Shown in pieces: positions 12,916 through 49,941 of a DNA stretch of 64,000 nt. Numbering within the stretch: the stretch's first letter is position 1; each line of letters begins with the position of its first letter. A model generated the notes under the pieces. The model was not told the DNA's origin. It was given only the letters and a program-made list of their open reading frames with translations, and made no database searches. The DNA is from Flavobacterium undicola (GTDB taxonomy: Bacteria; Bacteroidota; Bacteroidia; Flavobacteriales; Flavobacteriaceae): positions 62,001-126,000 of the forward strand of contig NZ_JAAAPM020000006.1 of the NCBI RefSeq assembly GCF_009909155.2, read 5' to 3'. The position numbers and the translations under genes are program-made.

Positions 12916-13019
12916 ATACCATTTAGAAATATAAAATAATCCGATTTTCCAACTCCCTCTCCTTTGGAGAGGGTTGGGGTGAGGTAAACAAAAAACTGTT
13001 TTATAATTCTAAATGGTAT
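12916..13019. repeat. 104-bp inverted-repeat element carrying the ctctcctttggagag repeat
   Basis: The ends are a perfect 13-bp inverted repeat (ataccatttagaa at 12916-12928 and ttctaaatggtat at 13007-13019). The centre holds ccctctcctttggagaggg followed by ttggggtgagg (about 12954-12985), itself partly palindromic. The layout resembles a short non-autonomous element. A close relative of the central block sits inside the GH3 coding region at 25306-25337. Apart from this element and the two terminators, the 437-nt gap between 12829 and 13265 shows no coding potential. Confidence 0.7.
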
Positions 13020-24080: not shown

Positions 24081-26399
24081 ATGAACATAAAAAAAAATAT
24101 CACAACAGGAATTTATATACTGATAACCATTGGAACTATGAATGCACAAAAAAAACTATATTTAGACAAAACAAAATCAATTGAGGAACGAATAGATTTA
24201 TTGATAAAACAAATGACCTTAGAGGAAAAGGTTGGCCAAATGAACCAATATAACGGTTTTTGGGAAGTAACAGGCCCAACACCAAAAGGAGGTAATGCTG
24301 CTTTGAAATATGAACATTTAAGAAATGGATGGGTGGGTTCTATGCTTTCTGTTCGTGGTGTAAAAGAAGTTCGAGCTGTCCAAAAAATTGCAGTGGAGGA
24401 AACCCGCTTGGGAATTCCGTTAATAATAGGATTTGATGTGATTCACGGATATAAAACCTTGAGTCCGATTCCGTTGGCGGAAGCGGCAAGTTGGGATATG
24501 GAAGCCATAAAGAAATCGGCTCAAGTGGCGGCAGATGAGGCTTCGGCAGTGGGAATTAACTGGACCTTTGGGCCCAATGTAGATATTTCGAATGATGCGC
24601 GTTGGGGTCGTGTGATGGAAGGTGCAGGAGAAGATCCTTATTTGGGCAGCAAGGTGGCAATAGCCAGAGTAAAAGGGTTTCAAGGCGATACGAAAGCTGA
24701 TTTAGCTAAAGTAAACACAATTGCGGCTTGTGCTAAACATTTTGCTGCATACGGTTTTGCTGAATCCGGCAGGGATTATAACACGGTAGACATTAGCAAT
24801 TCTAAATTATATAACACCGTTTTACCTCCTTTTGAAGCGGCTGCAAATGCTGGAGTTCGTACGTTTATGAACTCGTTCAATATTCTGAATGGTATTCCGG
24901 CAACGGGAAACAGTTTTCTGCAAAGAGACATTTTGAAAGGGAAATGGCAGTTTGATGGATTTGTGGTATCTGACTGGGCTTCGGTTCGTGAAATGATTGC
25001 ACACGGTTACGCAAAAGATGGAGCGGAAGCAACACAAAAAGCTGTAACGGCAGGTTCAGATATGGACATGGAGTCGTATTTGTATGTGAATGAATTGGCA
25101 AAATTAGTCAAGGAAGGAAAAGTAAGTGAAGCCCTGATTGATGATGCAGTTCGCCGAGTGTTGAGAGTGAAATTTGAGTTGGGATTATTTGATAATCCTT
25201 ATAGATATTGTGACGAAAAACGTGAAAAAGCAACAATTGGAAACAAAGCCAATAATGACGGGGTTTTGGATATGGCAAAAAAATCGATCGTGTTGTTGAA
25301 AAACGCTCCCTCTCCTTTGGGGAGGGCTGGGGAGGGGTTACTTCCGCTACAAAAATCAGGACAAAAAATTGCTTTGATTGGGGCTTTGGCAAACGACAAA
25401 AATAGCCCATTGGGAAGCTGGAGAATTGCAGCCGATGACAACACGGCCGTTTCAGTTCTGGAAGGAATGCAACAGTACAAAGGCAATCAATTGACTTTTG
25501 AAAGAGGAGCCGATTTAACGATAGGAAAAACGACTTTTGTAGATGAATTGGTTTTCAATACCACAGATAAAAGCGGATTTGATGCTGCCAAAAAAGTAGC
25601 TGCGAGTGCCGATGTCGTGGTGATGGTTTTAGGAGAACACGGTTTCCAGTCGGGAGAAGGACGCAGCAGAACGCATCTTGATTTACCTGGTGTTCAACAG
25701 GAGTTATTGGAAGAAATCTATAAGGTGAATCCAAATATTGTTTTGGTTTTAAATAACGGAAGACCATTGGCTTTGCCTTGGGCGGCAGAACATATCCCTT
25801 CAATTGTTGAAGCTTGGCATTTGGGAACGCAAACTGGAAATGCCGTAGCACAAGTCTTGTATGGTGACTACAACCCAAGCGGAAAATTACCAATGTCCTT
25901 CCCGAGAAATGTAGGTCAATGTCCAATTTATTATAATAATTACAGCACAGGAAGACCTTCTAACAGTGAAAAAAATGTATTTTGGTCCCATTATACTGAT
26001 GTAGAAAAAACGCCTCTATATCCTTTCGGATACGGCTTGAGTTATACAACTTTCGATTATAAAAATTTGCACCTAAATAAAACCGCTTTCGCAAAAGGGG
26101 AGTCGGTTTTGGTTTCTGTTGATGTGACCAATTCTGGGAATTATGATGGAAAAGAGGTTGTTCAGTTGTACATTCATGATCATGCAGCGAGTTTGGCCAG
26201 ACCAGTAAAAGAATTGAAAGGATTTGAATTAGTTCATTTGAAAAAAGGAGAAACGAAAACGGTTACTTTGATTTTAACGGAAAAAGAACTTGGTTTTTAT
26301 GATAATGAAGGGAATTATTTGGTAGAAGCCGGAACTTTTAAAATCATGGTAGGCGGTAGCTCTGACAAAGGATTGGAAAGTGAATTTGAGTTGGAATAA
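24081..26399 (+). CDS. bglX: GH3 beta-glucosidase (BglX-type)
   Basis: A 772-aa exported GH3 enzyme (signal peptide to about residue 22). The N-terminal barrel includes EEKVGQMNQY, the substrate segment MEGAGEDPYLGS, KHFAAYG, and the nucleophile Asp298 in FVVSDWASV. The C-terminal domain has GEHGFQSGEGRSR with the acid/base Glu, and a fibronectin-III-like domain ends the protein (VSVDVTNSG, GKEVVQLYI). It removes terminal beta-glucosyl residues, fitting glucomannan oligosaccharides. It has an odd insertion: at residues 409-419 an APSPLGRAGEG peptide, encoded by a dispersed palindromic DNA repeat, sits between VLLKN and LLPL where relatives have two or three residues. The frame is preserved. 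Confidence 0.93.
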   Translation: MNIKKNITTGIYILITIGTMNAQKKLYLDKTKSIEERIDLLIKQMTLEEKVGQMNQYNGFWEVTGPTPKGGNAALKYEHLRNGWVGSMLSVRGVKEVRAVQKIAVEETRLGIPLIIGFDVIHGYKTLSPIPLAEAASWDMEAIKKSAQVAADEASAVGINWTFGPNVDISNDARWGRVMEGAGEDPYLGSKVAIARVKGFQGDTKADLAKVNTIAACAKHFAAYGFAESGRDYNTVDISNSKLYNTVLPPFEAAANAGVRTFMNSFNILNGIPATGNSFLQRDILKGKWQFDGFVVSDWASVREMIAHGYAKDGAEATQKAVTAGSDMDMESYLYVNELAKLVKEGKVSEALIDDAVRRVLRVKFELGLFDNPYRYCDEKREKATIGNKANNDGVLDMAKKSIVLLKNAPSPLGRAGEGLLPLQKSGQKIALIGALANDKNSPLGSWRIAADDNTAVSVLEGMQQYKGNQLTFERGADLTIGKTTFVDELVFNTTDKSGFDAAKKVAASADVVVMVLGEHGFQSGEGRSRTHLDLPGVQQELLEEIYKVNPNIVLVLNNGRPLALPWAAEHIPSIVEAWHLGTQTGNAVAQVLYGDYNPSGKLPMSFPRNVGQCPIYYNNYSTGRPSNSEKNVFWSHYTDVEKTPLYPFGYGLSYTTFDYKNLHLNKTAFAKGESVLVSVDVTNSGNYDGKEVVQLYIHDHAASLARPVKELKGFELVHLKKGETKTVTLILTEKELGFYDNEGNYLVEAGTFKIMVGGSSDKGLESEFELE
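25306..25337 (+). repeat. Palindromic dispersed repeat inserted in-frame in GH3
   Basis: The 32 nt beginning ctccctctcctttgg and ending tggggagggg differ from the intergenic copy at about 12952-12985 by only a few bases. The block translates as APSPLGRAGEG in the sense frame. It lies at the junction loop between the two GH3 domains, where an insertion would do least harm. Confidence 0.85.
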
Positions 26400-49886: not shown

Positions 49887-49941
49887 AAATGTTTGTTACT
49901 ATGAACAAAAACACTGTTTTTGTTCATAGTAACAAACATTT
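49887..49941. repeat. 55-nt perfect palindrome
   Basis: Positions 49887-49913 and 49915-49941 are exact reverse complements (27 nt each) around a single C at 49914. The core reads gtttgttactatgaacaaa. It ends 6 nt before the ATG of a broken HipB-like gene, so it may be the operator and autoregulatory site of that gene, or a cruciform-forming element. Confidence 0.9.

Follow-up and report, generated by a model that had tools for sequence, protein, structure and literature searches.

A palindromic insert in a GH3 beta-glucosidase gene

The 64,000-nucleotide stretch of Flavobacterium undicola DNA analyzed here (the window) contains, on the forward strand at positions 24081-26399, a GH3 beta-glucosidase gene whose 772-aa product exceeds the NCBIfam cut-off for BglX and contains GH3 N-terminal, C-terminal and Fn3-like domains. 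On the same strand, at 25305-25337, this gene carries an in-frame insert of 33 nt, a solo REP-like palindrome that is read as APSPLGRAGEG (residues 409-419, A409 to G419) and falls at the start of the Glyco_hydro_3_C domain (403-655). The sequence CTCCCTCTCCTTTGGGGAGGGCTGGGGAGGGG occupies exactly 25306-25337, and the preceding G completes the in-frame 33 nt; the palindromic core, CCCTCTCC-TTT-GGGGAGGG (25308-25326, forward strand), has a stem with one G-U wobble. An earlier note on this DNA had proposed that a dispersed repeat entered this coding sequence in frame as the peptide given above, and the frame is indeed unbroken over all 772 aa; the palindromic repeat in GH3 is a real in-frame insertion that leaves the gene intact. 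The description of the repeat as ‘domesticated’ is not supported: the insert is seen in one lineage only, no sign of a function was found, and its hairpin is no more stable than those of shuffled sequences (z -0.70).

A three-residue turn (VLLKN-[DE]KN-LLPL or similar) takes the place of the insert in 28 of 30 aligned Flavobacterium GH3 loci; one locus of the 30 (L035) has a different, nine-residue turn, and the insert is absent from all 29 of the other loci in this alignment. Among 80 named GH3 orthologues, 74 have the three-residue turn, five have a nine-residue turn of the ACPPGRKEN type that is not clearly repeat-like, and one was left unscored by the regular expression used, so that the insert is missing from all 79 that were scored. 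The orthologue comparison suggested in the earlier note thus places the insert in the window's gene alone among these loci, and the outcome that the note had named as contrary to an insertion, the same peptide encoded by unrelated codons in orthologues, was not found among them. The closest orthologue (L266, 90% identity) has GAAAAAAAC in place of the window's 33 nt, from which it follows that 9 nt were swapped for 33, a net gain of eight residues; comparison of the insert edges with this orthologue revealed no obvious target duplication.

In a tree of 104 GH3 orthologues, built with the turn excluded from the alignment and leaving out L034, L276 and identical rows, the seven long turns represent seven separate and scattered changes. 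Longer turns, unrelated to the insert, are also found in the two solved GH3 homologues shown; alignments to solved homologues were used because the predicted GH3 structure (from a 23-sequence alignment) had a mean pLDDT of 41 and was unusable. The place of insertion is a turn that tolerates changes in length. The nine-residue turns (L267, L291, L303, L309 and L337) have very similar DNA, occur in scattered lineages and coincide exactly in position with the window's insert, and the turn of L035 looks related to them. A reading of the nine-residue turn as a decayed copy of the repeat was rejected, since 76 of 2000 shuffles were equally good in the best case and up to 1016 in others; no dispersal of this turn was found in the five genomes searched, and the identity of its flanks gave no clear sign of recent exchange.

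A dispersed repeat family with stop-free frames

The earlier note had also reported that 32 nt within GH3 nearly equal an intergenic element, and this resemblance was confirmed, with 28 of 32 positions identical to an intergenic copy of the palindrome at 12953-12984 (forward strand). A search with the 19-nt core, allowing up to three mismatches, gave three matches in the window, two of which are both strands of this intergenic palindrome, where shuffled sequences predict 0.01. Across the genome from which the window is taken (G000), 50 places match with up to two mismatches, compared to none for a reversed-pattern control, and single copies from three other species (L234, L247 and L261) equal the GH3 copy at 31 of 32 positions.

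The intergenic copy sits in the middle of a MITE-like element of 104 bp (12916-13019, unstranded) with perfect 13-bp inverted ends (ATACCATTTAGAA). Elements with a similar flank pattern number 13 in G000, the window's own and L002, L003, L004, L007, L015, L019, L022, L030, L071, L074, L080 and L083. The window also contains an array of TTGGAAGTTAGGAGTT-type units at 1836-2013 and, at 49887-49941, a perfect inverted repeat with 27-nt arms and one base between them.

Aligned copies give the repeat unit a consensus of NCTCCCTCTCC-TTT-GGAGAGGG-YTGGGG[TA]GAGG, with variants. Units whose tail contains A (GGGGAGAGG or GGGGAGGGG) have no stop codon in any of the six reading frames, and those with T are free of stops in five. 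In G000, A-tail copies lie directly before a start codon in seven of 15 cases (among them L024, L028, L065, L070 and L079), compared to three of 24 for T-tail copies (Fisher p 0.027, one test), and may supply a Shine-Dalgarno-like AGAGGA at these positions. RNA folding gave a z of -1.54 against shuffles for the intergenic copy and -2.88 for the left palindrome of the leuS element described below; the second leuS piece that was folded (L081:1455-1500) misses the palindrome core and so says nothing about it.

In-frame copies in other genes

The claim of the earlier note that this family can invade genes is supported by in-frame copies in genes of this and related genomes. In G000 these lie in valS and in the genes for RNase HII and a P-type ATPase, in addition to GH3; G028 has them in the genes for D-Tyr-tRNA deacylase (Dtd) and a dehydrogenase of the E1 type; and the position of the G000 valS copy is occupied in G007 by a related insert. 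Aligned with solved ValRS, RNase HII and Dtd, the corresponding proteins have additional residues where the copies lie. Further copies in G000 lie close to the N-termini of prephenate dehydrogenase, prephenate dehydratase and phosphoribosylanthranilate isomerase, where they may be untranslated. Within the in-frame palindrome of the G000 P-type ATPase gene (L077) there is a small second palindrome, CCCGAAGCGTCGGGA.

When 122 copies from seven genomes (those fetched, a subset of each genome's copies) were classified, 10 were internal to genes, two of these being the flanks of the leuS nuclease, eight were N-terminal, four were C-terminal, 29 lay in open extensions upstream of genes and 71 were intergenic; the corresponding numbers for G000 are five internal, five near an N-terminus, none near a C-terminus, nine in upstream open extensions and 30 intergenic. 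The G000 valS insert is an inverted pair of palindromes with 10 nt between them and no nuclease, about 75 nt in all by reading. Of the two ends of the full element described in the next section, the valS insert contains both, correctly oriented, and the GH3 insert contains one.

A DUF559 nuclease domain between inverted palindromes

In leuS of G000, a DUF559 (Vsr-like) nuclease domain lies in frame between two inverted copies of the palindrome, and in the LeuRS chains shown, the adjacent residues 237 and 238 face each other across the insert. The palindromes of this element differ from the solo type in having the loop GCT, not TTT, and a longer stem. At a stand-alone DUF559 gene in G000 only one side has palindromes, and these are of another type. 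A full element bearing precisely the solo sequence was not found in this genome; G028 contains a full element with the solo core. In G016, a single leuS frame contains two DUF559 inserts at different sites (L101 and L151).

Searches for DUF559 were positive for 30 of 61 Flavobacterium genomes, for 182 of 395 from the Bacteroidia and for 170 of 296 sampled from the phylum. Among the matches listed, frames of at least 300 aa hold 22 of the 37 Flavobacterium matches of at least 78 bits and 81 of the 150 Bacteroidia matches. The hosts of the domain that could be named with NCBIfam are leuS, metH, ileS, recG, a RecB-like helicase and hsdR. This naming took in 25 proteins: 23 with the domain in frames of at least 300 aa, two of which had no other family match, plus L144 (451 aa) and L128, which is a neighbouring frame without the domain. 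FGAM synthase (purL) was considered as a host and rejected, since the domain ends nine residues before the end of the frame (L133) and is therefore terminal; in L144 the leuS frame continues for only 20 residues past the domain, and both L133 and L144 are counted among the 42 embedded domains analyzed below.

The flanks of 57 DUF559 domains, from which five further domains of less than 50 bits had been removed beforehand, were analyzed by aligning the reverse complement of the left 200 nt with the right 200 nt and comparing the result to shuffled controls. Inverted flanks above the 99th percentile of the shuffles were found for 32 of the 42 domains embedded in frames of at least 300 aa and for nine of the 15 stand-alone domains; for the other 10 embedded and six stand-alone domains no clear inverted flanks were seen. 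Most of the aligned pieces are palindromes built like the GH3 insert, and the two ends of one element resemble each other more closely (median flank alignment score 33) than do mismatched pairs (18). In other classes of the phylum, eight of 10 further DUF559 loci also had such flanks, and six of the 10 are in long frames. A catalytic motif is retained in its loose form by 39 of the 42 embedded domains and in its stricter form by 34. The domain has a dN/dS of 0.06-0.19 in the seven of 10 pairs for which it was computable, and is under purifying selection.

Empty sites and clustering by insertion site

Comparisons across related genomes revealed filled and empty versions of the same sites. For metH, seven of 30 loci are filled, 22 are empty and one was unscored; for leuS, five of 30 are filled, 10 are empty and 15 were unscored, one of the latter holding two inserts. 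G047 and G036, which are sisters on the host tree (support 93), differ at the metH site, filled in G047 and empty in G036; the two proteins are 94-96% identical on either side of the site, where the G047 element stands, by eye, in place of about 24 nt. L191 was excluded from the metH tree.

On a tree of the 57 DUF559 domains, the labels of the host sites require 17 changes, compared to 36.8 when shuffled, and the domains largely cluster by insertion site. The ten rows of one metH site (metH-A), which come from four families, form one group (support 81/86) with L091, an insert at a different metH site. Labels elsewhere on the tree are less orderly, with seven changes for the 12 rows of leuS site 1 and a split recG group, and many forks of this tree are unresolved because the domain is short.

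Origin and mobility of the palindrome

The 33 bp in GH3 are probably a solo end of this palindrome-DUF559-palindrome family, lodged in a turn of variable length, with the nuclease as the presumed agent. In its full form the element consists of the reverse complement of the palindrome, the DUF559 nuclease and the palindrome. The DUF559 protein, with its Vsr-like PD-(D/E)XK fold, would cut conserved sites in genes or the palindromes themselves, and repair of the break would then copy in the whole element or one of its ends. A few host bases appear to be swapped out on insertion (9 nt in the case of GH3 and about 24 nt for the metH gene of G047), and a target duplication is not evident. The solo palindromes would be partial copies, or would have been moved in trans. 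The GH3 insert would survive because a palindrome with a GGGGAGAGG or GGGGAGGGG tail is free of stops in six frames and because the turn is variable in length.

The DUF559 nuclease is the best candidate for the enzyme involved and is presumed to act on the palindromes; we know of no activity of DUF559 on such sequences. The repeat is present in 17 of the 24 Flavobacterium genomes with a strong DUF559 match and in six of the 37 others (p 3e-5), and at least eight copies occur in 11 of the 24 compared to two of the 37, both being comparisons that ignore phylogeny and count the copies that flank DUF559. The six genomes with the repeat and no strong match include G005, which has 14 copies and no DUF559 match. 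These genomes speak against the nuclease as partner, as do the palindromes at the two DUF559 loci of G000, which are not of the solo type, the embedded and stand-alone domains without clear inverted flanks, and the single end in GH3; the failure to find a full element of exactly the solo type in G000 lowers our confidence in the partnership somewhat.

A first alternative, which we consider unlikely, is that the palindrome is an ordinary REP mobilized by a RAYT (REP-associated tyrosine transposase) and that DUF559 merely lies between two REPs. RAYTs score above the NCBIfam cut-off in 22 of the 61 Flavobacterium genomes, including G000 (80.4 bits), and RAYT-type families are known to include REPs that lie within genes (PMC3733652, PMC6006769). 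However, none of the 18 RAYT loci examined contains the core with fewer than six mismatches (the best has six), and in 11 of the 12 loci analyzed from this set the RAYT has its own inverted flanks of other sequence, for example GGGCACGGATTGCAAATCCGCGCTATC. The GT[AG]G tag is missing at the foot of the hairpin, and the association across genomes is weak: the repeat is present in 11 of 22 genomes with a RAYT and 12 of 39 without (p 0.17, ignoring phylogeny), which is no clear association. The palindrome does not lie beside the RAYT loci examined, and a RAYT was rejected as its partner, even though such enzymes exist in the genome.

Slightly less likely again is that no dedicated enzyme exists and that errors of replication or repair, such as template switching at hairpins or ectopic repair of breaks, spread palindromes that loops then tolerate. 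The leuS turn does host other in-frame sequences, namely simple repeats (L155, L160 and L171) that look similar to the window's TTGGAAGTTAGGAGTT-type array and, in L168 (G017), another palindrome, GTCATTGCGAACGAAGTGAAGCAATCTC; yet the matched inverted ends around a conserved nuclease, and the clustering by insertion site, suggest an element. It is improbable that an IS200/IS605-type transposase mobilizes the palindrome, as a gene of this type that lies 122 bp from one G000 copy (C33) might suggest: by reading, this gene seems to have landed in a repeat-holding MITE-like element and its own ends look different, and the window's copy of a like element has no such gene. Finally, a GC-rich loop of ancestral or convergent origin, to which the longer turns of six other Flavobacterium rows and of solved homologues might point, is very improbable and largely refuted by the match of the insert to repeat copies of other species at 31 of 32 positions, those turns being weakly or not repeat-like (76 to 1016 of 2000 shuffles equal) and the nine-residue turn undispersed in five genomes.

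Beyond the attribution of the GH3 insert to a DUF559 element, we tentatively propose a new class of mobile element in the Bacteroidota, in which a Vsr-like DUF559 nuclease between inverted REP-like palindromes, themselves free of stops in nearly every frame, homes into conserved sites of essential genes such as leuS, metH, ileS and recG, persists there as an unspliced extra domain, and seeds solo palindromes that add short peptides to other proteins, the GH3 insert being debris of this process. Taken alone, the GH3 insert is a real, tolerated intragenic palindrome of ordinary size. What looks new is a widespread nuclease element with REP-like ends that lies in frame in essential genes.

Relationship to known systems

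Rickettsia palindromic elements (RPE) occur in frame in many proteins, are usually tolerated and are about 100-150 nt long, and we know of no nuclease-type partner gene for them. The comparison with these elements in the earlier note stands in so far as both insert in frame into unrelated protein genes. It does not extend to length, the inserts described here being shorter (33 nt in GH3, about 75 nt by reading for the valS pair), or to the presence of a candidate partner gene, DUF559. The note had also likened the insertion to an exon, and nothing points to splicing.

Homing endonuclease genes and inteins place a nuclease at conserved sites in genes, have empty alleles and cluster by site across taxa. 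The DUF559 inserts in leuS and metH, as distinct from the GH3 insert, resemble them in occupying fixed sites with empty alleles in relatives, and in that their relatives group by site over host taxon, with exceptions. Unlike inteins, a DUF559 insert is translated as a continuous part of the host protein and has palindromic ends, and the one product scanned with Pfam, that of G000 leuS, showed DUF559 and synthetase domains and no intein domain (other hosts were analyzed with NCBIfam).

The repeat family also has properties of REP/REPIN systems, including short imperfect palindromes, many dispersed copies (the 50 places in G000), inverted pairs, and copies in frame within genes, tRNA synthetase genes among them. 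REPs within genes have been described, some in tRNA synthetase genes (PMC3733652, which also mentions Rickettsia palindromic elements), as have in-frame REPs within RAYT genes (PMC6006769). RAYTs are the known partners of REPs (PMC6006769), and GTAG- and CGTC-tagged REPs are among the REP/REPIN systems with a RAYT (PMC3733652, PMC6006769). In contrast, copies of the repeat read in both orientations have no GTAG, GTGG or CGTC tag, the foot being NCTCCC and the other side YTGGGG[TA]GAGG; the repeat does not lie near any of the 18 RAYT loci examined, and the palindrome flanks a nuclease of the PD-(D/E)XK type, not an HuH enzyme.

DUF559 itself is known from VsrA of Caulobacter, a protein of the PD-(D/E)XK superfamily that is a predicted mismatch-repair endonuclease and is linked to DNA damage in cells without a cytosine methyltransferase (PMC12907096). 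The elements share this domain with VsrA, and the excerpts of the VsrA account that we draw on contain no mention of palindromic ends or insertion into genes (PMC12907096). Segments with a transposase and DUF559 have been described as recombination hotspots (PMC12308824). In the literature searched (open full texts, mostly as titles and abstracts), we recognized no account that connects DUF559 with palindromic repeats or with its insertion in frame into housekeeping genes.

Implications

Palindromes in frame within genes are known from Rickettsia and from some REP-rich genomes, and their source is mostly not obvious. The elements described here provide a candidate source, namely a nuclease element whose ends are built in the same way, which occurs in essential enzymes across the Bacteroidota and whose sites are empty in close relatives. 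If the proposal is true, it would describe a spreading element that spares its host gene through translatability instead of splicing, and it would account for some of the loops and additional domains that tRNA synthetases and metabolic enzymes have in particular lineages. DUF559 would also acquire a testable role; it is still listed as a ‘protein of unknown function’ in Pfam.
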